Of a DNA stretch of 64,000 bases, positions 51,023-64,000 are shown piece after piece; the stretch's first letter is position 1; each line of letters opens with the position of its first letter. The notes below the pieces were generated by a model that ran no database searches, was not told the DNA's origin, and saw only the letters and a list, made by a program, of their open reading frames with translations. The DNA lies in NCBI GenBank assembly GCA_902525575.1, contig CABZHU010000002.1, positions 18,467 through 82,466 of the forward strand. The letters run 5' to 3'. The DNA is from an uncultured Pelagibacteraceae bacterium. Its GTDB lineage: Bacteria > Pseudomonadota > Alphaproteobacteria > Pelagibacterales > AG-422-B15. The position numbers and the translations under genes were made by a program.

Positions 51023-51925
51023 ATGGAAAATAATATAAAAGTTGGTGCTTTTTTTATGCTCGTCAGTGTGACTGGCTTTGCATTAATGGATTTGGCAGTA
51101 AAATGGACTACAGAAGATTACAGTATTGGTTACGTTGTATTTTGGCGAATGATAGGAGGCTTAATACCTCTTGTATTTACAATACCTCGTGATCGATGGG
51201 CACATCTATTAACAACTTCAAAGCCCGGACTTCATTTTATTAGAAGTTTAGCTGGAACAATTGCTTTATTTTGTGTTTACGCAAGCTTACATTTCTTGCC
51301 ATTGGCAACAACCGTATCACTTACGTTTGCATCGCCTATTTTTAGTACATTATTATCAATTTTCATTCTTGGAGAAATAGTTGGAAGCAGAAGATGGACT
51401 GCAATTGCAATTGGGTTCATTGGAGTTTTAGTAATAGTTAATCCAACATCATCTGGATTTAACTTTTATATGATCTTACCAATTTTATTTTGTATATTTT
51501 TTTCTATAGTTGCAATTTCGATACGCAAGTTAAGTGAAACAGAGCCTACATACTTAATAGCCTTATACTTTACAATTTTCGGAATAATTGCTTCTCTGTT
51601 TACAATCCCTTTTGGTGGCTGGTATTGGTGGCCTGTGTCTTTATTTGATTTTGGCATGTTGGCGTTAGTTGGGATCAGTGGAGGTATAGGAAACCTTGCT
51701 TTAACTCAAGCATACAAGAATGCTGAAGTGTCAATTGTTACACCTTTAAAGTATTTGAGTTTGATTTATGGAATAATCTTTGGCTATTTTATTTGGAATG
51801 AAATTCCTGCTTGGAATACATACATTGGTGCATTTTTCATTATTGTTTCCTCATTGACAATTCTGAGAAGAGAGAAAATTCTAAAAAAAGAAATTGTACC
51901 TGATAAATATATAATTAGACGTTAG
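51023..51925 (+). CDS. EamA-family (DMT) transporter
   Basis: Duplicated EamA TM pattern. Confidence 0.9.
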   Translation: MENNIKVGAFFMLVSVTGFALMDLAVKWTTEDYSIGYVVFWRMIGGLIPLVFTIPRDRWAHLLTTSKPGLHFIRSLAGTIALFCVYASLHFLPLATTVSLTFASPIFSTLLSIFILGEIVGSRRWTAIAIGFIGVLVIVNPTSSGFNFYMILPILFCIFFSIVAISIRKLSETEPTYLIALYFTIFGIIASLFTIPFGGWYWWPVSLFDFGMLALVGISGGIGNLALTQAYKNAEVSIVTPLKYLSLIYGIIFGYFIWNEIPAWNTYIGAFFIIVSSLTILRREKILKKEIVPDKYIIRR

Positions 51926-52707
51926 TCGTTAGACCAGTTTGGATCTCTTTTTTCAAGAAAAGAAGATATTCCCTCGTTGCCATCATTGAGTGTTAAATTC
52001 CTTACCATCTCTGCACTCGTAAAGTCATAAGCGTCAGTTAATGGCATTTCACTTTGACGGTAGAAACTTTTCTTTCCCATGGCAATAACGGCAGCTGATT
52101 TATTACAAATATCATTGCATGACTTTTCAACTACTTTTTCTAAATCTGCACTATCAACCGCGGCATTGATCAATCCAATTTGTACAGCCCTGTCAGACAA
52201 AATCGGTTCTCCACTTAACAACATTTCCATCATTGGTTTTCTGCCGATTGTCCTTGAGACAGCAACTTGAGGTGTATGACAAAATAATCCAATATTTACT
52301 CCTGGAGTTGCGTATTTTGAGTCTAATGATCCATAAGCTAAATCACATGAGGCGACTAATTGGGCACCAGCTGCAGTTGCTATGCCTCTGACCTGCGCAA
52401 TGACTGGCTTACTTAAAGCCTGAATTTGTTTCATCATTGAGGAACACGTTGAAAATAATTCAACTTGAGATTTAGTATCATTATTATCAAGAAAGCCTTT
52501 TACCTCTTTTAAATTATGTCCTGAGGAAAATATTTTATCACTTTCAGATTTTATAATTACAACTCGAATAGAGTCATCATGATCAATAGTTGTTAGTTGA
52601 TTTTGAATTTCTCCCATCATAGGCATACTTAGACTATTTGCAGGAAGGTCATTCAAACTTAAAGTAGTAACTGAATTTTTATCACTTCTGATGAGAATAT
52701 TCGTCAT
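51922..52707 (-). CDS. enoyl-CoA hydratase/isomerase family protein
   Basis: IFSSGHNLKEV, GIATAAGAQLVASCDLAYG. Confidence 0.9.
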   Translation of the reverse strand: MTNILIRSDKNSVTTLSLNDLPANSLSMPMMGEIQNQLTTIDHDDSIRVVIIKSESDKIFSSGHNLKEVKGFLDNNDTKSQVELFSTCSSMMKQIQALSKPVIAQVRGIATAAGAQLVASCDLAYGSLDSKYATPGVNIGLFCHTPQVAVSRTIGRKPMMEMLLSGEPILSDRAVQIGLINAAVDSADLEKVVEKSCNDICNKSAAVIAMGKKSFYRQSEMPLTDAYDFTSAEMVRNLTLNDGNEGISSFLEKRDPNWSND

Positions 52708-53420
52708 TATTTAAACCTTATGTTTACTCTTCGGTTTCTTTTACCTTTATTTTCAATTTTTCCAATCTCTAATCCTTCAATCTCACCCGTTGATTTCACA
52801 TGAGTGCCTCCACACGCCTGTATATCTAAAATTTTATCTTCACCAATTTGAACAATTTGTACTTTGTTATCAATTATGGGAGGGCTAACAGCAGCGCCTT
52901 TTGCTAAATGGGGATTATCTCTAAATTCATCTCCAGAAATTTGTTTTGTGAATACAGGAAAATTATTTTTGATAATTTCATCAATCTGTTGATTCATTGC
53001 CTCTTTATCAAGCAAACTTGGGTCGACATCAAAATCAACTCTACTTTTTTGTGCACCAACTGAAGCACCTGTAATTAAAGCATCAATCAAACTACACAGA
53101 ATATGACATGAGGTATGCATTCTCATATGACTTTGTCTCAATTCCCAATCAATCTTGATCTCACATTCTTTACCAACAATGCTCTGATCAATATCACCGT
53201 CGACTAAATGAATAATGTCATTTGGAGAATTACCTTTCTGAGTGTCGATAACTTTATAAATTTGATCTCCTAGGATGATCTCTCCTTGATCACCCGGCTG
53301 TCCGCCTGACTCAGCGTAGAAAATTGTTCGATTCAATTGAATAGAGTTTTGATCGACGTTTGTAACAACTGCTTCAGACTGAGTGAGGTAAGCATCATTG
53401 TTAAAAAGTAATTCAGTCAT
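52707..53420 (-). CDS. alanyl-tRNA editing (AlaX-type) protein
   Basis: FYAESGGQPGDQG, HMRMHTSCHI, IQACGGTHV. Confidence 0.94.
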   Translation of the reverse strand: MTELLFNNDAYLTQSEAVVTNVDQNSIQLNRTIFYAESGGQPGDQGEIILGDQIYKVIDTQKGNSPNDIIHLVDGDIDQSIVGKECEIKIDWELRQSHMRMHTSCHILCSLIDALITGASVGAQKSRVDFDVDPSLLDKEAMNQQIDEIIKNNFPVFTKQISGDEFRDNPHLAKGAAVSPPIIDNKVQIVQIGEDKILDIQACGGTHVKSTGEIEGLEIGKIENKGKRNRRVNIRFK

Positions 53421-53422
53421 GA

Positions 53423-54793
53423 TTATAAATAGAGATCATATTCCTCTCGAGGAACAAAACTTGACTCGACATGATCAATTTCACCTTGTTTTGCAGCAGT
53501 ATAAAGATCAAGATATTCTTTTCCAAGATATTTTTTTAATAGTTTGGAAGATTGGAAACGCGCTAACGCTTGGTCCATATTTTTTGGCATATCAATATCA
53601 GCTTCTTTATCCGCTCCTTCGTTATTATCAAAATCAACTTGGTTTGAGGGAGTTAATTCATTAGCTAAACCATTATGCAACCCTGCTAATAAGCATGCTA
53701 GGACTAAGTAAGGATTGGCGTCTGATGAAGCAACGCGATGTTCAATTCTTTTTGCGTCATCTGATCCAGCTGGTATTCTTAATGAAACGTCTCTTCGATT
53801 CCAGGACCAACTTGTATTAACAGGAACGAAATTTCTTGTTTCTATTCTTCTGTAACCATTTCGATTTGGAATAAAGATTGGAAAACTATCATAAAACATT
53901 GATTGAAAACCAGCTATAGCACTTTTTAATTTTTTATTTCCATAACGATTCGGAGTAGCAAAAATATTTTTTTCATTTTTATCATAAACGGAGAGATGAA
54001 GATGCATTCCATTACCTGTTTGATCTAAAAAGGGTTTAGCCATAAATGTTGCTTCATAGCCGTGCCTTGCACTTGTCTCTTTAATAATTCGTCTTAATAA
54101 AGCAGCATCATCTGCGGCTTTCAGAAGATCTCCTGTGTGCTTTAGATTAATTTCATACTGTCCCGCAGCAAATTCACTAGAAGCCGTAGTCGCTGGTATA
54201 TTTTGCATCTCGCAATTCTTGTTAATATCATCAAATAACTTTCCGAAGAGATCAAGGTCTGGTATACCATAAACATGTGTTTTATTAGCACCTTCAGCAG
54301 GTATTGGTTTTCCAGACTCATCTCTGTTTTTGTCTAAAAGATAAAATTCTAATTCAAAAGCAACCACAGGCTTCAATCCAGTGTTCTTAAAATTCTTCAT
54401 AACTTTTTTTAAAATATTTCTAGGGTCAACCTCTGATGGGTCCTTTATTACTCCCCAATTTTCTTGCTCTTTTCTCATTGTGATTAAAACTTGCAAGAAG
54501 CGTTCATCCCACGGTACTGGCTTAATAGTTCCTTTAACAGGAACCAGAACACCATCAGGATCACCATCTGTCCAACCTAGATTCAGGGTATTTGTTACTC
54601 CTCCTAGAACATCTAGATAAAATGCGGAGAATGGGAGAAGAACGCCATCTGAAAAAATTTTATTAGCTTCAAGGACTGGAAAACGTTTTCCTCTTACATA
54701 ACCACATAAATCTGTGAAGATAGCATCGACATATTGAATATTATTGTGCTGGCTTAATATTTCATCAAATTCAGCTTGTGTAGCAACTTCCAT
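53423..54793 (-). CDS. glutamine synthetase-family, gamma-glutamylpolyamine synthetase-like
   Basis: FELEFYLLD, GNGMHLHLS, RIEHRVASSDANPYLVLACLLAG; adjacent to polyamine-type transporter genes. Confidence 0.88.
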   Translation of the reverse strand: MEVATQAEFDEILSQHNNIQYVDAIFTDLCGYVRGKRFPVLEANKIFSDGVLLPFSAFYLDVLGGVTNTLNLGWTDGDPDGVLVPVKGTIKPVPWDERFLQVLITMRKEQENWGVIKDPSEVDPRNILKKVMKNFKNTGLKPVVAFELEFYLLDKNRDESGKPIPAEGANKTHVYGIPDLDLFGKLFDDINKNCEMQNIPATTASSEFAAGQYEINLKHTGDLLKAADDAALLRRIIKETSARHGYEATFMAKPFLDQTGNGMHLHLSVYDKNEKNIFATPNRYGNKKLKSAIAGFQSMFYDSFPIFIPNRNGYRRIETRNFVPVNTSWSWNRRDVSLRIPAGSDDAKRIEHRVASSDANPYLVLACLLAGLHNGLANELTPSNQVDFDNNEGADKEADIDMPKNMDQALARFQSSKLLKKYLGKEYLDLYTAAKQGEIDHVESSFVPREEYDLYL

Positions 54794-54807: not shown

Positions 54808-55902
54808 TTAAGTCAGTCCATTAACGTGATTTTGTAAATGACTTAGATAGAACTTTTGATATTGAACCAAGCTTGTCTCTAGTTCGCCATACTTTCCAGG
54901 CTGATAAGCTCGACTTTCAATGCCCTTTTGATTCATTTCACACAATTGGGAATCTTCTGTTGATGTTTGGTCCCAAAGAAAAATCATTTTATCAATGTCA
55001 ACTTCAGCATCTTTGTGAGTAACCCAATATTGAGTAACGATTGTTTTATTTTGACTAACAGGAGTAAATAAAAAAAGAATTACAAATTCATTATTGGCAA
55101 CAAAGCTATTGAATGGGCTAAAACCAATAGCGGTATAACCATGATCCGGTCCTATGGTTTTAAAGTCCCCCATCAGTGAAGAGCATGAATAGCTGCCATC
55201 CATTGTCTCAGACATAATGCCTTCAGGTAAAGGAGTGCGCTCTGCAATTCTAAAATATTTATTGGTATCTTCACTGTACTCGCTAACAAACAAACCTTTA
55301 TTTTGACTTTCAAGTGTCCAATCTTTTATACGTTGATTGAATTCAGGAGATTCAATTCCTGAGCCAACCCCAGCTCCATAAGAATTACAATACGCCTCCC
55401 CATGAACACTTAAATAATCTTTGTGAGTAAATTCACCTCCCCAACAATGCGCGCATTCTTTGAAGTTGTGAATGGTTGCAAGATGAGAAGCATTAAATAT
55501 AAAGTCTTTTTGAAATGCGATCTTACCGTCATTAAGGCCATGAATTTTAATATATGGTTCTAGTGGTTTTATAAATTCTTCAAAGAAATATGGCACTTCA
55601 GAAAAGTTGACAAAAATTAAGCTTTCATAAACTTTTAAATGGCATTTGAAATCAGGTACAGATGATGAGATAGTTAAATTATTGTCTTTAGACATTTTTA
55701 TTTCAACAAACCCGCCATTAATTTGATAAATGAATGTATTGTTTTCATTAAAATAAGATAGATGAGTAAGAAATACCCACTGTTTCTTGAAAACAGCCTC
55801 ATAACTTAGATCAAACAATGCTTTGTTGGTGAAAAAAAGCTGATCCATTCCTGTATTAGGGTCTTGGTTTTTAATAATGTCTCTAATGTTTTGATCAATC
55901 AT
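54808..55902 (-). CDS. ring-hydroxylating oxygenase alpha-like protein lacking the Rieske motif
   Basis: NFKECAHCWGGEFTHKDYLSVHG and Ig-like/helix-grip C-terminus similar to the 63.1 kb RHO; no CxH...CxxH in N-terminal domain. Confidence 0.75.
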   Translation of the reverse strand: MIDQNIRDIIKNQDPNTGMDQLFFTNKALFDLSYEAVFKKQWVFLTHLSYFNENNTFIYQINGGFVEIKMSKDNNLTISSSVPDFKCHLKVYESLIFVNFSEVPYFFEEFIKPLEPYIKIHGLNDGKIAFQKDFIFNASHLATIHNFKECAHCWGGEFTHKDYLSVHGEAYCNSYGAGVGSGIESPEFNQRIKDWTLESQNKGLFVSEYSEDTNKYFRIAERTPLPEGIMSETMDGSYSCSSLMGDFKTIGPDHGYTAIGFSPFNSFVANNEFVILFLFTPVSQNKTIVTQYWVTHKDAEVDIDKMIFLWDQTSTEDSQLCEMNQKGIESRAYQPGKYGELETSLVQYQKFYLSHLQNHVNGLT

Positions 55903-55954: not shown

Positions 55955-57451
55955 ATGAGTAGTTTAGACCTTGATATTTGTTATTTATCAGCTTCTGAAG
56001 CCCTAGAAAAATTTAAAAATAAATCTTTGTCTCCAGTTGAGCTATTAAATGAGACAATAAAAAGAATTGAAAATGTAAACCCAAAAATTAATGCTTTTAA
56101 TTTTTTTCGCTTCGAAGAAGCATTGAAAGAAGCAAAACATTCAGAATTAAAATATACAGAAGATAAATCTACTTTGCCTTTGGAAGGTTTACCTTTAGCA
56201 ATTAAAGATGAAGTTAATATAAAGGGACAACCTAATAAGAATGGAAGCTTAATCTATAAAGACGTAATAGCAGAAGGAACTGACGTAGATGTAGAGTCCC
56301 TTGTAAGCTCTGGTGCAATAATTCATGCACGCACAACTAACCCAGAGTTTTCACTGACATCATTCTGCCATTCCAAAGTAAATGGCGTCACAAGAAATCC
56401 CTGGAACTTAGATATGACACCAGGAGGTTCAAGTGGGGGAAGTGCTGCCGCACTAGCGTCGGGTTGTGCATCACTTGCAACTGGTAGTGATATAGGTGGA
56501 TCAATTCGTATCCCTGCTGGGGCCTGCGGAGTCGTTGGTTACAAACCTCCCTATGGAAGAAATCCAATGGGTTATCCTTTTAATCATGATCCGTATTGTG
56601 TTGTTGGTCCCCTTGCGAGAACTGTTAGTGATTGTGCCCTTATGCAAAATGTTATGAGTGGTCCAAATAAAAATGATATTGCTTCACTCAGACCCAAAAA
56701 AATTATTCCTAATAAGTTTGAGAATATTAAGAACTGGAAAATTGCTTATTCACTTGATCTTGGATTTTTTGAGGTGGATGAAGAAGTTGAAAAAAATACA
56801 TTGGAGGCTTTGAAAAAATTTGAGACTCTTGGTGCAACAATTACAGAAGTAAAATTAAATTGGAATCGAGATGAAGTAAATTCAGTTTGCTTTAGTCATT
56901 ACGCTAATTCATTTTATGGCCTCATAGCAAAATTTTCAAACGATGAAAAAAAACTATTAACTGATTATGCAAAAATGTTTGCTGAAGTCCCTGAATTACA
57001 TATCAGAGCGATTCAAAATAATGAAAAGTACTATCATGATCAAATAGGGGCTTATGTTGGATATGATGTTATTGAAAGCTCAGAAATCACAGGCCGTATG
57101 TATTCAGAAATTGGGCCAATATTAGACAGTTACGATTTATTTATATGTCCTACAAACTCTTTACCTTCAATTAAGGCTGATATTGATATTGTTAATGAAA
57201 ATATCATTATCAATAATAAAGAGCAGGAGTGTGCAGATTTTTCTTGGGTCATGTCACATCCATTTAATATGCTGGGTAAATTACCGGTCCTATCAGTCCC
57301 TTCAGGATTAAGCTCTAGCAATATTCCAACAGGAATCCAAATTATTGCACGATCTTACAGTGATGAATTAGTATTCCAGGGTGGGTACAACTACGAAATG
57401 TTAGATCCATGGCTCAATTCCAGCAAAAATCGTCCTTTGATTCACTTTTAA
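55955..57451 (+). CDS. amidase (amidase signature family)
   Basis: GLPLAIKDEVNIKG, GGSSGGSAAALASG, GSDIGGSIRIPA Ser-Ser-Lys motif. Confidence 0.95.
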   Translation: MSSLDLDICYLSASEALEKFKNKSLSPVELLNETIKRIENVNPKINAFNFFRFEEALKEAKHSELKYTEDKSTLPLEGLPLAIKDEVNIKGQPNKNGSLIYKDVIAEGTDVDVESLVSSGAIIHARTTNPEFSLTSFCHSKVNGVTRNPWNLDMTPGGSSGGSAAALASGCASLATGSDIGGSIRIPAGACGVVGYKPPYGRNPMGYPFNHDPYCVVGPLARTVSDCALMQNVMSGPNKNDIASLRPKKIIPNKFENIKNWKIAYSLDLGFFEVDEEVEKNTLEALKKFETLGATITEVKLNWNRDEVNSVCFSHYANSFYGLIAKFSNDEKKLLTDYAKMFAEVPELHIRAIQNNEKYYHDQIGAYVGYDVIESSEITGRMYSEIGPILDSYDLFICPTNSLPSIKADIDIVNENIIINNKEQECADFSWVMSHPFNMLGKLPVLSVPSGLSSSNIPTGIQIIARSYSDELVFQGGYNYEMLDPWLNSSKNRPLIHF

Positions 57452-57517: not shown

Positions 57518-58597
57518 ATGAAAAAATCAATTTTTACAGTTTTATTAGGAGCAGCTTTAATAGCTCTTATAGCTGGATGTTCTCAACAAGAAGAAGAAGT
57601 TGCACAGTCTAAACCAGGGCCTGGATCAGTCTTCTTGTGGGGTGGCTATGATGATGATGGCCTATTTGGATCATACGCTGCAGAGCATGGTTCCCCCGAA
57701 TACTCAATATTTGGTGACGCTGAAGAGGGATTGCAAAAGCTAAAAGCAGGCTTTGAAGTTGACTTAGCATGGCCTTGCCAAGGTGAAATAAAAAGATGGG
57801 TAAGAGCCGGCGTATTAGAGCCACTTGATCCGTCAAGAATTGATAACTGGGATGATATGTTCCCTGAAGTTAGAGACCTGCCAAGCGGTATGGTTGATGG
57901 TAAGCATTATTTTGCACCAGTCGACTGGGGAGACACTACATTGTTTTACATGGCAGACAGAGTCGATTGGATGGATGCCTCTAATGAAAGTTTTGCTCTA
58001 ATGGAAGACCCAAGAGTAAAAGGTAAAGTCGGTATCTTAGACTCAGCTGCAGACTCTTTGTTTTTAATGATGCACCATCTTGGAGTTGATATCAGAGAAC
58101 AAGATCAATTAACGAAAGCTGCTATTGACAAAGGTATCGATAAGTTTCGTGAAATGAGAGATAATGGTCAAATTCGTGCATTCTTTGGAGATACATCTTC
58201 AATGATTGAAGCGCTAGGAAACGAGGAAATAGACGTAGCACTTGGATGGAACGAAATAGCATGGAGTGCAGGAGCAAAAATGATGCAGCCTGCTAATGGC
58301 ACAATGACTTGGGCTTGCGGTCTTGCGATTGTTAAAGGTGCAGACCTTGATAAAGCATACGCAATGATTAATGGTGCAACTAGTGCAGAAACATCTGCTT
58401 ACTTATTAAGTGAGTGGGGTTATGGACACAGCAATAAAGCTGGCTTTAGCACACTTACAGCTGACGAATTGGCTGAGCGTGGTGTTGCATCAAATCCTAT
58501 AGAGCATTTAAATAATGGAATGTTCTCTGTGATGCCAACTGACGAAGTTACTGACTACATGGAAGCTCAGTGGGCTGAAATGGTAGCTGGCGGTTAA
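57518..58597 (+). CDS. extracellular solute-binding lipoprotein, spermidine/putrescine (PotD)-type
   Basis: Lipobox LIAGC; solute-binding fold (VDLAWPCQGEIKRWVRAGVLEPLD, HYFAPVDWGDTTLFY). Confidence 0.88.
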   Translation: MKKSIFTVLLGAALIALIAGCSQQEEEVAQSKPGPGSVFLWGGYDDDGLFGSYAAEHGSPEYSIFGDAEEGLQKLKAGFEVDLAWPCQGEIKRWVRAGVLEPLDPSRIDNWDDMFPEVRDLPSGMVDGKHYFAPVDWGDTTLFYMADRVDWMDASNESFALMEDPRVKGKVGILDSAADSLFLMMHHLGVDIREQDQLTKAAIDKGIDKFREMRDNGQIRAFFGDTSSMIEALGNEEIDVALGWNEIAWSAGAKMMQPANGTMTWACGLAIVKGADLDKAYAMINGATSAETSAYLLSEWGYGHSNKAGFSTLTADELAERGVASNPIEHLNNGMFSVMPTDEVTDYMEAQWAEMVAGG

Positions 58598-58619: not shown

Positions 58620-58657
58620 AAAATAGCCTGTTCTCTCTTGAGGACAGGCTATTTTTT
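58620..58657. terminator. bidirectional-looking intrinsic terminator between convergent SBP and ATPase genes
   Basis: AAATAGCCTGTTCTC-TCTT-GAGGACAGGCTATTTTTT, about 15-bp stem plus T-run. Confidence 0.9.
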
Positions 58658-59731
58658 ATTGAGTAAGGAAATATCGTTTAAATTTATGCTGATAAAGCAT
58701 TTACCATCTTGAAAAGACTGATTATCAAAATATTGTGATGATACGGTTATAATTTTTTCTATTTCTTTAGTTTCTACGTAAAATTTTGTCATTTCACCTA
58801 GATATGATGTTTGCTTGATTTTACCTTGTAAGCAAATATCCCAGTCTGATTTTTCTTTGTCAATCATCATTGTCTCTGGACGAACACTGCAAATAACATC
58901 TGAGGCATTTTCACTTATATTGAGATTATTTTTTATTTTAAATAAACCAAGATCTTCAATGTTAACATTAATATATTCTCCGTCTTTAGAATCCGTCTTA
59001 GCTTTTAAAAAATTAGTTTCGCCAATAAAGTCACTAACAAATATATTTTGAGGATTTTTATATAATTCGTTTGGAGATGACATCTGCTGAATTTTACCTT
59101 CACTCATCACCGCAACTCGGTCTGACATACTAATAGCCTCTTGCTGGTCGTGTGTAACAAATACAAAAGTTATTCCAATCTCTTTTTGAAGAGTTCTTAG
59201 TTCGAGTTGCATTTCGTCACGTAACTTTTTATCTAGTGCCCCAAGTGGCTCATCCAGTAATAATACTTTCGGTTGTCTTACTAAAGCCCTTGCTAATGCT
59301 ACTCTTTGTCTTTGACCTCCAGATAGTTGGCTACTATAGCGTTCCTCATAACCTTCTAATTTTACCAACGACAAAACATCCTTAACTCTTTTGATAATTT
59401 CATCATTTGTTAAGCCAAGTTTTCTAAGACCAAACTGAACATTTTTCTCAACGTTTATGTGCGGAAAAATTGCGTAGTTCTGAAAAACCATATTTGTAGG
59501 TCTTTTATCAGGAGGTAATGCGGTAATATCACTGCCATCAAGTAATAGATTTCCACTAGTTGGATACTCAAAGCCAGCTAGTAATCTCAATAAGGTTGTT
59601 TTACCACAACCAGACGGACCTAGCAGAGAGAAAAACTCTCCCTCTTTAATTTGAAAAGAGACATCATCTACCGCTTTTACATTTCCAAAATGCTTAGAAA
59701 TTTGGTTTATCTGTATAAAAGAATCATTCAT
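58649..59731 (-). CDS. potA: polyamine-type ABC transporter ATP-binding protein
   Basis: GPSGCGKTTLLR, LSGGQRQRVALARAL, TOBE C-terminus. Confidence 0.92.
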   Translation of the reverse strand: MNDSFIQINQISKHFGNVKAVDDVSFQIKEGEFFSLLGPSGCGKTTLLRLLAGFEYPTSGNLLLDGSDITALPPDKRPTNMVFQNYAIFPHINVEKNVQFGLRKLGLTNDEIIKRVKDVLSLVKLEGYEERYSSQLSGGQRQRVALARALVRQPKVLLLDEPLGALDKKLRDEMQLELRTLQKEIGITFVFVTHDQQEAISMSDRVAVMSEGKIQQMSSPNELYKNPQNIFVSDFIGETNFLKAKTDSKDGEYINVNIEDLGLFKIKNNLNISENASDVICSVRPETMMIDKEKSDWDICLQGKIKQTSYLGEMTKFYVETKEIEKIITVSSQYFDNQSFQDGKCFISINLNDISLLNKK

Positions 59732-60539
59732 GTATTTTTATTCCAAATTCAGCTTTCTCTTTTCCTTGACCAAGGTTTCGCAACCAGAATGCTAACAAAA
59801 CTATAAAAGTAGTAAACACAATTATAACCGCTCCTAAAGCCAATACATGAGGCAGTTTCTGAATAAATCTCATTTGAGCCCACATATACATAGGCAATGT
59901 TGCATCACTTCCAGTTAAGAAGAATGCCAGAACAAATTCATCAAATGAAATTATAAAGCTCAATAAAAGTGAAGCTATTATACCTGGTAGGTATAATGGA
60001 AGAGATACTCGGTAAAATGTCCCCCAAGCGTTTTCTCCAAGGTCTCTTGAAGCTTCCTCAAGTGAGAAATCAAATCCTTCTATACGAGCGATTAAGATAA
60101 GCATTGCGAATGGAGTGCAAAAAAGAATATGTCCTAAAGTTACCGGTACAAGTCCTAATTTAAAACCGAGGCTCAACCAAATCACAAGTATTGCAACTGC
60201 TAAAATAATTTCAGGGATTAAAAAAGGGATCATAATGGCACCATAAGAAATATTTTGTCCTCTGAATTTATACCGTGCGAATGCTTTGGCCGCAAACAGT
60301 GCAATTGTTGTGCTGACAACACTTGCCACTACACCTACTTTGATGCTAGCCCAAAGAGCTTTATGTAAATTTGTTTTTGCCCACATTTCTTCATAATGCT
60401 CTGTTGTAAATCCTGAGAGGGGGAATGACATATAATTTGCGTCATTAAAACTAAATATTGGCAAGAATAAAACAGGAATATATAAAAATGCAAAATACAA
60501 TAATGTGTAAATTAACAATGTATTATTTTTTTGCTCCAC
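59724..60539 (-). CDS. potC: polyamine-type ABC transporter permease
   Basis: EAA motif EEASRDLGENAWGTFYRVSLPLYLPGI. Confidence 0.92.
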   Translation of the reverse strand: MEQKNNTLLIYTLLYFAFLYIPVLFLPIFSFNDANYMSFPLSGFTTEHYEEMWAKTNLHKALWASIKVGVVASVVSTTIALFAAKAFARYKFRGQNISYGAIMIPFLIPEIILAVAILVIWLSLGFKLGLVPVTLGHILFCTPFAMLILIARIEGFDFSLEEASRDLGENAWGTFYRVSLPLYLPGIIASLLLSFIISFDEFVLAFFLTGSDATLPMYMWAQMRFIQKLPHVLALGAVIIVFTTFIVLLAFWLRNLGQGKEKAEFGIKIHE

Positions 60540-61424
60540 TTATGAAATCCTCTGAGTAAGTTTTTTTGTTGTATATGAAACAATCATTGTCACTATTGCT
60601 ACAGTAATAAGCATAATGGTCGCAGAAGCAGCCCCAAGAGGAAGATTATTTACTTTTCCAAAGTAGGCTTGAATCATATTTGACAGCATTCTACCGTCAG
60701 TTCCCCCAAGCAAAGCAGGAGTTACATAATCTCCAACAGTTGGAATAAAGATAATTAATATAGCGCCAATTATTCCAGGAAGAGATAATGGAAGAGTGAT
60801 TTTCCAAAAAGTTTCTAGTCTTGACAATCCTAAGTCTCTGGCAGCTTCAATTAGAGAAAAATCTATTTTATCCAATGAAACATACAAAGGCAGTAAAGCA
60901 AATGCTGCCCATGCATGGGTGAGGGTTATAATAACCGCTGTCTCAGAATACATTAAAAAAGTGAGAGGTTCACTAAGCAGTCCTGCATTAATTAAGGAAG
61001 AATTAATAACTCCTTTTGTCCCAAGTATAATTTTCCAAGAAAAAACCCTCAAAAGATAGGATGTCCAGAAAGGTAAAGTCAATAAAACAAGCCATAGCAT
61101 TTTATTTTTCTTTACGTAAAAAGCTATGTAATAACAGACAGGATATGCAGTAAGAAGAGTTACGAAAGTTACAATAAACGAAATCTTCACTGATTTTATA
61201 AGTAGTGAAACAAGCAAATTACTTTGAAAAAAATCAATGTACCTTGTGATAGTAAAAGAGTAGTCAATTTCTGTGAAACTGGTTTGAGTAAAAAAACTAA
61301 AACTTAACATTAGCCCTAAGGGTATAAGCATAGCTAAAGTAACTAAGATCAATGCAGGAGAAAGTAGTGAATAAGCTTTTGCAGGATCACTCCTCGCATA
61401 AAATGACTTCCAGACTTGCAACAT
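60540..61424 (-). CDS. potB: polyamine-type ABC transporter permease
   Basis: EAA motif EAARDLGLSRLETFWKITLPLSLPGI. Confidence 0.92.
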   Translation of the reverse strand: MLQVWKSFYARSDPAKAYSLLSPALILVTLAMLIPLGLMLSFSFFTQTSFTEIDYSFTITRYIDFFQSNLLVSLLIKSVKISFIVTFVTLLTAYPVCYYIAFYVKKNKMLWLVLLTLPFWTSYLLRVFSWKIILGTKGVINSSLINAGLLSEPLTFLMYSETAVIITLTHAWAAFALLPLYVSLDKIDFSLIEAARDLGLSRLETFWKITLPLSLPGIIGAILIIFIPTVGDYVTPALLGGTDGRMLSNMIQAYFGKVNNLPLGAASATIMLITVAIVTMIVSYTTKKLTQRIS

Positions 61425-61460: not shown

Positions 61461-62816
61461 TTATATTTCTTTTTTACTTTTATCAGTAAAATTTGAATAC
61501 CATAGATACAGTCTTAAGTACCATAATCTTAAAAAACCTAGTGGTATTTTAGGAGAGAGACCCTGATAGACTTTTGATATATTTGTTTCCCCACTGTTGG
61601 ACTCATAAATCATCTCAGCCAACTTCTTTCCACAATAAACTGTAGTATTGTTTCCATTAGCTTGATAGCCATAAGAAAACAGTACTGACTTATCATCATC
61701 TAGTGCACCGAATGCTGGGACGAAATCTCTAGTCATGACTACTGTACCTCTCCAGTAGTGATCAATATCTATATTGTTCCAATTAGGAAAAACTCCCTTA
61801 AATTTTTGAGTCATTAATTCTCTCATTTTCAGTGCACTTGCATCATCGCCATAAGTATCGCCTCTTGTACCAAATAACATTCTGTTAGAAGGCATTCTTC
61901 TGTAATAATATAAAATTTCTCTAGAATTACATATAGGATTTAACGTTTTATAGTTTTGTAACTTAAATTCATCATCACTCATTTCTCTAGTAACAATAAT
62001 GTTTGATAGGACTGGCATCATTCTATTAGCAAAACTTGGGTGAAGTGATTCATCCGTATAGCCGTTAGTAGCTACAACAACTTTATTTGCAGTAAGTGAT
62101 CCACCTTCTGTTATTAATTTATGTGATCCATTTCTCTCCCATTTTTTTACTCTCGAAAAACTATGCAATTTAGCACCGGCATCCACAGTTGCTGATGCAA
62201 ACCCTCGCATAAATGCCATAGGATTCATTGCAAATCCAGCTTCTGTAAAAACTGCGCCAAATTGTTCTGTTGATTGGTGTCCAACTTCATCAAATTCTTC
62301 CTTAGGAATCCATTTTGTATTGATTCCAAAATACTCTTTTAATTCATTTCCCCATTCTTTTAATTCTTCGCTACTCGCTGGATGGTGGGCTACATCAAGG
62401 TTGCCATCACCTACTTTTTCACAATCAATATTATTTTCTGATATGATTGATGAAAGAAGTTCAACGCCCTCAATTTGAGATGAAAAAAATTTCTTTGTCT
62501 CTTCCATCCCAAACTTTTTTATTAATTGTGTCGTTGATAATTTTGTTGCTGGCAGGCAACAAAAACCAGCGTTCCTTGCGCTGCTTGCGAAACCATAGTG
62601 CCCAGCTTCTAACACTCTTACATCTCCACCATAATTTTTTGCAATATGATACGCGGTACTAATGCCTGTAAATCCGCCTCCAATGACACATACATCGCAT
62701 GATTGATCGCCTATTAATTTTGGATACTTATTTTGATCAATGCCGCTGACCTCTTCCCAATAGCTTTCAATGGGTTTATTGACATCGTATATTGCCTTAT
62801 CATATAGTTGTTTCAT
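61461..62816 (-). CDS. FAD-dependent amine oxidoreductase (PuuB/DAO-like)
   Basis: DVCVIGGGFTGISTAYHIA Rossmann, FSYGYQANGNNTT C-terminal FAD contact. Confidence 0.9.
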   Translation of the reverse strand: MKQLYDKAIYDVNKPIESYWEEVSGIDQNKYPKLIGDQSCDVCVIGGGFTGISTAYHIAKNYGGDVRVLEAGHYGFASSARNAGFCCLPATKLSTTQLIKKFGMEETKKFFSSQIEGVELLSSIISENNIDCEKVGDGNLDVAHHPASSEELKEWGNELKEYFGINTKWIPKEEFDEVGHQSTEQFGAVFTEAGFAMNPMAFMRGFASATVDAGAKLHSFSRVKKWERNGSHKLITEGGSLTANKVVVATNGYTDESLHPSFANRMMPVLSNIIVTREMSDDEFKLQNYKTLNPICNSREILYYYRRMPSNRMLFGTRGDTYGDDASALKMRELMTQKFKGVFPNWNNIDIDHYWRGTVVMTRDFVPAFGALDDDKSVLFSYGYQANGNNTTVYCGKKLAEMIYESNSGETNISKVYQGLSPKIPLGFLRLWYLRLYLWYSNFTDKSKKEI

Positions 62817-63097: not shown

Positions 63098-64000
63098 TTA
63101 TGGTAACTTCATATTGGTAAAATACCAATCATAAAAATAGGTAACAGCCGACTCATTCTGAGAAAGAACCCCAGGACTAAAAGAATGAGACAATAAGCCA
63201 TTTTGGTTATTTTCAATTATGGTTGTGTCGTGTGCAGTAGTTACGTCCCATATGTGAGTTAAATTTTCTTCATTAAAATCTATGCCCTCTTCAGCTTCCT
63301 CATTGACTAACCAAATCAATTCAACTTCAGATTGCAAAATTGATAATGGTTTAAATATAAACATAACTCCAAAGTCATTTGTAAAGTAACAACAGCCAAA
63401 AGGATTAAAACTTACTTGGGATAAACCACCATCAAATTCTTTAAACTGACCCATTAGTTTAGAGGCTGGTTTACCATCTTTAGTTTGTGATAAATTTCCA
63501 TTACCAATGGGTGTACGGTCCACGTATCGATTTAATCCCTTACTTAATCCTTCTTCAGTTTCTAAATATGTTTTTGAGGGAATTCCTTTTGTTTTACAAT
63601 CCTCAATCCATGGTTGAATCTTTTTTAAATATTCTTGTGTTTCTTTTTCTGGGGCCGTTCCAAGACCGGCACCCATGGTGAATACCCAGTCTTTTTCATG
63701 TACTGAGCATAGCTCTGGATGTGCTGGACCACAGTGATAGCATTCTTGGAAATTTTCTAGGACAAGTTTGAAATTAGCTTTCGTAGGATATTTTCGTCTA
63801 GCAGCAATCTTTGCCTTTTCAGGATTATGAAAATTTACAAGCTCAGTCAATGGAGCAATAAACTCATTGAAATCCATTGGTTCATCCATTGAAAGATTTA
63901 TGAATATCAAGCCTTGATAGATATTTATATGACAAGGCTTTAAACCCCAATCTTCCATTTTAAAATCATCTGGCATGTAGCGTGCTGACTTTAATTCTCC
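63098..64000 (-). CDS. ring-hydroxylating (Rieske-type) oxygenase alpha subunit, catalytic part; N-terminus outside window
   Basis: ENFQECYHCGPAHPELCSVH mononuclear Fe motif; frame stays open to 64000 (GELKSARYMPDDF...). Confidence 0.88.
   Translation of the reverse strand, partial: GELKSARYMPDDFKMEDWGLKPCHINIYQGLIFINLSMDEPMDFNEFIAPLTELVNFHNPEKAKIAARRKYPTKANFKLVLENFQECYHCGPAHPELCSVHEKDWVFTMGAGLGTAPEKETQEYLKKIQPWIEDCKTKGIPSKTYLETEEGLSKGLNRYVDRTPIGNGNLSQTKDGKPASKLMGQFKEFDGGLSQVSFNPFGCCYFTNDFGVMFIFKPLSILQSEVELIWLVNEEAEEGIDFNEENLTHIWDVTTAHDTTIIENNQNGLLSHSFSPGVLSQNESAVTYFYDWYFTNMKLP

Follow-up and report, generated by a model that had tools for sequence, protein, structure and literature searches.

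A group V oxygenase homologue without its [2Fe-2S]-binding segment is linked to a Rieske-bearing paralogue in a SAR11 family

Gene content of the locus

The window analyzed here is a stretch of 64,000 nucleotides from an uncultured Pelagibacteraceae bacterium (contig CABZHU010000002.1, positions 18,467 to 82,466); the contig, with 82,466 bases, stops at the end of the window. It carries a gene for a Rieske-less homologue of the alpha subunit of ring-hydroxylating oxygenases (hereafter RL) as well as part of the gene for a second oxygenase (hereafter the partner). The features considered are as follows (RL residue numbers are given where a feature lies within RL).

51922..52707, reverse strand: enoyl-CoA hydratase family protein (profile matches)
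52707..53420, reverse strand: AlaX-type editing protein
53423..54793, reverse strand: glutamine-synthetase-like ligase, directly downstream of RL (14-bp gap)
54808..55902, reverse strand: RL, Rieske-less group V ring-hydroxylating oxygenase alpha homologue, 364 aa
54952..54954, reverse strand: D317 of RL, third ligand of the predicted His-His-Asp triad (CntA D323)
55402..55467, reverse strand: mononuclear-iron motif NFKECAHCWGGEFTHKDYLSVH, RL aa 146-167 (from alignments; residue roles mapped from CntA)
55639..55686, reverse strand: approximate junction of the missing [2Fe-2S]-binding segment (CxHRG...CPYH), RL aa 73-88 (from alignments)
55955..57451, forward strand: amidase, divergent from RL
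57518..58597, forward strand: PotD/PotF-like solute-binding protein (profile matches)
58649-59731, 59724-60539 and 60540-61424, reverse strand: PotA-, PotC- and PotB-like ABC transporter genes, respectively (ORFs by similarity; syntenic copies)
61461..62816, reverse strand: FAD-dependent amine oxidase (DAO family), between the partner and the transporter
63098..64000, reverse strand: partner Rieske oxygenase alpha subunit, C-terminal 300 aa, cut by the contig end

The RL and partner genes lie in separate transcription units approx. 8 kb apart. In related loci, the gene order is GcvT-like protein, class III aminotransferase, partner, FAD amine oxidase, PotB, PotC and PotA, followed by the binding protein and the amidase (both divergent), RL and the glutamine-synthetase-like ligase; the ligase adjoins RL in every related locus that reaches that far. 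The AlaX-type gene is found downstream in the loci of genera g1 and g8 and is absent in g7. Two further observations concern the region around the partner, i.e., one locus (L034:528-4921) encodes, upstream of the partner, two CrtO/phytoene-desaturase-like FAD proteins and a free-standing GcvT-like protein, and the class III aminotransferase beside the partner is split into two frames in L046 and L142 (both from single-cell genomes), by either a frameshift or a sequencing error.

This setting (PotABCD-like transport, a GcvT-like protein, FAD amine oxidases and a glutamine-synthetase-like ligase) points to an N-methylated amine as the probable substrate; the folate-linked GcvT-like protein resembles the C-terminal part of TMAO demethylase. 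The glutamine-synthetase-like protein scored under all curated cut-offs (GlnA, type III and gamma-glutamylputrescine synthetase) and is possibly a gamma-glutamyl ligase coupled to RL. Judged by sequence identity, the block formed by PotB, PotC, PotA and the binding protein has moved between lineages separately from the oxygenase genes on either side of it (L064, L067, L076 and L083): the Pot block of L064 and L076 is 95-99% identical to that of the window and the Pot block of L067 64-67%, with RL and partner at approx. 76-78% in all three. Despite this exchange, RL and the partner have been retained together.

Absence of the Rieske segment from RL

The reading frame of RL is intact, with an ATG start and no internal stops. 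Its sole Pfam domain is PF00848, the C-terminal catalytic domain (47.6 bits; cut-off 24.9), and the Rieske domain PF00355 had no match in RL; full-length versions of the partner match both domains. The initial annotation had described an N-terminal domain without a CxH...CxxH pair, and alignments to full-length partners bear this out, as the gap in RL is a single block of approx. 45-54 residues that comprises each of the four ligands of the cluster (CxHRG...CPYHAW) together with the loop that follows. The strands on both sides of the block are still there, and in the predicted structure the beta-strands flanking the junction have a pLDDT of approx. 90. The segment is absent from all 39 distinct full-length RL homologues; furthermore, no homologue contained a relocated Rieske motif elsewhere in RL (Pfam searches and the 39 sequences).

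RL is a group V (betaine-type) oxygenase homologue from which the [2Fe-2S]-binding segment is cleanly gone. As read from the alignments, it is without the defining feature of a Rieske oxygenase, i.e., a cluster of its own, but still has the catalytic domain and the full set of group V iron-site residues. The predicted structure of RL shows an oxygenase fold, with 3n0q and stachydrine demethylase as the best PDB matches, and its N-terminal beta domain is confident and closed (block-mean pLDDT approx. 79-96 over residues 1-140).

The iron site of RL

The two iron-site histidines of RL are spaced H-x7-H (ECAHCWGGEFTH), compared to H-x4-H (ECYHCGPAH) in the partner. This spacing agrees with the 3-residue insertion reported initially, and the insertion motif is carried by 39 of 39 distinct full-length RL homologues. 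The motif region contains F147, the bridging E149, the Cys pair C150/C153, H152, the 3-residue insert with an invariant E157, and H160. In CntA, the corresponding roles have been assigned to Tyr203 (cation-pi residue), Glu205 (bridging Glu, needed for electrons to reach the iron from the Rieske cluster of the neighboring subunit 12 A away), Cys206/Cys209 (the group V Cys pair) and His208/His213/Asp323 (the iron triad) (PMC7948474, PMC10952381); these align, in order of position, with Phe147, Glu149, Cys150, His152, Cys153, His160 and Asp317 of RL. All of these RL residues are invariant in both RL and the partner (39 RL and 29 partner sequences), so that RL retains the residues of the predicted His-His-carboxylate triad, with three residues inserted between the histidines, the bridging acid and the Cys-x-x-Cys pair described for group V oxygenases (PMC10952381). 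Retention of the bridging Glu in a protein without its own Rieske domain is the strongest single hint that RL may still take electrons from the Rieske cluster of a neighbor.

Residues found to be invariant across the 39 sequences and specific to RL number 58; the inserted WGGEF segment and the RL-specific Cys172, Cys240 and Cys321 are invariant. In the structural model, residues 150-185, i.e., the iron-site segment with the insert, have a pLDDT < 50 and the loop is not resolved.

The partner, its linkage to RL and the distribution of RL

As the contig end cuts the partner frame, its Rieske motif is unreadable within the window. Full-length partners in relatives have 412-428 aa and a Rieske domain above the Pfam cut-off, and CxHRG...CPYH is intact in each of the 29 distinct full-length orthologues; the closest one is approx. 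98% identical to the partner in the window over the shared part. Among solved structures, the partner is closest to 3n0q and stachydrine demethylase Stc2 and next to CntA, i.e., to quaternary-amine oxygenases of group V; its own predicted structure (pLDDT 59) was left out of the analysis.

Among 40 public loci with RL, 30 reach at least 7.9 kb upstream of it, and a partner lies approx. 8 kb away in 30 of these 30, a count that represents one family with conserved synteny and hence few independent events. RL thus does co-occur with a Rieske-containing oxygenase, as the heteromeric reading of the initial annotation requires. Genus g9 has the partner without RL beside it, and the dependence between the two therefore looks one-way.

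SAR11 are tiny marine bacteria that rank among the most abundant groups in the ocean. Whole-genome searches found RL in 43 genomes, all from one SAR11 family (f1; Pelagibacteraceae/Pelagibacterales in public records), and its 40 relatives in GTDB 220 contigs likewise all belong to one SAR11 lineage. RL was not seen in the other sampled families of the order, in viral contigs, in 385 genomes of the class or in 399 genomes of the phylum; almost all matches in the class and phylum sets come from frames of sufficient length for a full-length oxygenase (two matches with frames shortened by contig ends, L098 and L099, and a 216-aa frame in G816 were left out of this reading). Plasmid matches to RL all showed < 60% identity; the best ten showed 24-27%, and several were annotated as ordinary ring-hydroxylating dioxygenases. 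RL is under strong purifying selection, with a dN/dS of approx. 0.05 (approx. 0.04-0.17 wherever synonymous sites were unsaturated), comparable to that of the partner.

Origin of RL

In the best tree, the RL clade is sister to the clade of its own partner with support of 100/100; in a tree with one more, closer outside homologue, this grouping was recovered at 88/80. The Rieske columns were left out of the best tree. A sister relationship between RL and its partner is thus favored by the best tree, though not firmly settled. The stem branch of RL is long (1.2 changes per column).

One genome, G060, encodes at the same locus (L108:5487-6596) a divergent oxygenase in which the Rieske segment is absent and the histidines have the normal H-x4-H spacing; the amidase, found with RL of the insert type, does not adjoin this form. 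The G060 form groups with RL at 99/97 and 95/93 in two trees and is likely an intermediate. Since it has normal His spacing without a Rieske segment, the insertion probably followed the Rieske loss. Overall, these data suggest one Rieske loss with the insertion later, which the best tree favors without settling it firmly; two independent losses, with the G060 form placed with the partner, were not favored but also not rejected (AU test, P = 0.14). We propose that a group V (Stc2/GbcA/CntA-like) Rieske oxygenase was duplicated within the same gene cluster, that the copy giving rise to RL would have lost its [2Fe-2S] segment by an internal in-frame deletion, and that three iron-site residues would have been gained later.

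Electron supply to RL

Rieske domains in six genomes of the group (G000, G015, G019, G022, G059 and G060) were confined to the partner, an unlinked 387-aa oxygenase and a short bc1-type protein, with a further 404-aa frame in G060 only. Of the Rieske domains in these six genomes, only that of the partner is linked to RL; in the genome of the window it lies beyond the contig end. No match to PF00175 (NAD_binding_1) was found in the six genomes, some of which are 98-100% complete, and none to PF00970 (FAD_binding_6) in the three tested (G019, G059 and G060); these genomes, without a match to an FNR-type reductase domain, still carry two or three Rieske oxygenases. Among the PF00355 matches of the six genomes no Rieske-reductase fusion was seen.

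We hypothesize, with a probability of approx. 0.5, that RL is the acceptor (catalytic) subunit of a mixed head-to-tail trimer and is fed by the Rieske cluster of the partner. RL would still bind mononuclear iron, electrons would pass from the partner cluster via Glu149 to this iron, and the substrate oxidized by the pair would be an N-methylated or quaternary amine taken up through the PotABCD-like transporter. In the head-to-tail alpha3 arrangement known for CntA, the cluster of the next subunit serves each iron. In a trimer of this kind with a single RL, one partner cluster would be devoted to RL and the other to a partner iron, and the remaining partner iron, adjacent to RL, would be idle; if RL occupied two of the three positions, the sole cluster would serve only an RL iron. 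Under either arrangement, RL would therefore redirect electrons of the partner to a second, different active site. On the other hand, the partner would lose the donor for one of its irons with every RL incorporated, and this cost would need explanation. The heteromeric pairing put forward in the initial annotation is supported indirectly by the strict co-location of the two genes, their sister placement in the best tree, the retained triad and bridging Glu and the finding of no other linked Rieske donor.

RL could also be a pseudoenzyme, i.e., a non-catalytic subunit with a structural or regulatory role, which would bind to the partner or to the substrate and modulate partner activity; this is a variant of the binding or regulatory paralogue that had been offered as the other initial reading. 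The loss of the Rieske segment, an insertion that may break ligand geometry, the long stem branch and the many RL-specific invariant residues are consistent with such a role, but neither the ligands nor the bridging Glu vary, and residues 146-180 around the iron site form the most conserved part of RL, with 30 of 35 columns invariant among 39 sequences as compared to 4 of 40 in the least conserved part, the Rieske-domain remnant (residues 61-100). The Rieske-less G060 relative also keeps a fully canonical iron site. The pseudoenzyme reading is weakened by this extreme conservation, and we regard it as rather unlikely.

Alternatively, RL could act alone (or as a homotrimer) and receive electrons directly from a small plant-type ferredoxin. 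A frame with a Fer2 domain (PF00111; approx. 112-153 aa) is indeed present in the genomes, and NdmC provides a precedent for a Rieske-less oxygenase that uses a cluster on another protein (PMC4408171). The ferredoxin lies outside the cluster, however, no Rieske-bearing reductase was found, and the strict linkage of RL to the partner also argues against this route, which seems quite improbable.

An equally slim chance is given to RL being a mononuclear-iron enzyme that needs no outside electrons, either because the substrate supplies them or because the reaction is not an oxygenation. RL would then have left Rieske chemistry altogether, with the WGGEF insert and the invariant E157 remodeling the H-x7-H site for a methylated-amine substrate; if true, such chemistry would stand in one of the ocean's most abundant bacterial groups. 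The invariance of the H-x7-H spacing and insert, the RL-specific cysteines and the parallel absence of both insertion and adjoining amidase in the G060 form would fit this proposal. The known role of the invariant bridging Glu, however, is electron transfer from a Rieske cluster.

A decaying gene or an assembly artefact (frameshift or truncation), conceivable in streamlined, incomplete genomes and with the window's own partner cut by the contig end, is refuted by the occurrence of RL in 43 genomes, with intact frames in 39 of 39 distinct full-length copies and a dN/dS near 0.05.

Comparison with known systems

In the literature searched, NdmC was the only Rieske-family oxygenase found to be described without its cluster. 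NdmC belongs to the 7-methylxanthine N7-demethylase NdmCDE of Pseudomonas putida CBB5 and has no Rieske domain of its own, as this domain resides on the reductase NdmD, with NdmE as adaptor (PMC4408171). RL resembles NdmC as a homologue of mononuclear-iron oxygenases of the Rieske family without its own cluster; unlike NdmC, it falls by sequence in a group V/Stc2-like clade, and its linked Rieske domain sits on a full oxygenase paralogue rather than on a reductase. As no FNR-type reductase domain was found (six genomes for PF00175, three for PF00970), and a Rieske-bearing reductase in trans was likewise not found, the solution used by NdmC is apparently unavailable here. The analogy to NdmC drawn in the initial annotation thus holds for the missing cluster and fails for the electron source; in this family, RL has apparently compensated for the same loss by pairing with a sister oxygenase in which the cluster is retained.

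Stc2 (3vca, 4qup-4qur) and 3n0q of Ruegeria TM1040 are the best fold and sequence matches of both RL and the partner. Stc2 demethylates a quaternary amine and, unlike RL, retains a Rieske domain and the canonical spacing of the histidines. With CntA, a head-to-tail alpha3 enzyme with intersubunit electron transfer (PMC7948474, PMC10952381), RL shares the ECxHC motif (bridging Glu and Cys pair), two His and the Asp; unlike RL, CntA carries its own Rieske domain, is served by a dedicated FMN reductase (CntB) and has Tyr203 at the place of Phe147. Glycine betaine monooxygenase GbcA (NF058607) was the best NCBIfam match of RL, the G060 form and the partner, with all scores far under the curated cut-off of 670 bits (137 for RL and 308 for the partner).

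As the Rieske-less subunit separates donor and acceptor sites genetically, the pair of RL and its partner would provide a natural test of intersubunit electron transfer. In addition, the locus would mark a methylated-amine pathway kept in a streamlined SAR11 family. Pairs of group V oxygenases also occur with both members full-length and Rieske-bearing; another alphaproteobacterium has two such genes in direct tandem near PotABC-like genes (L114:10764-13433), and in L152 two are located approx. 1.4 kb apart.
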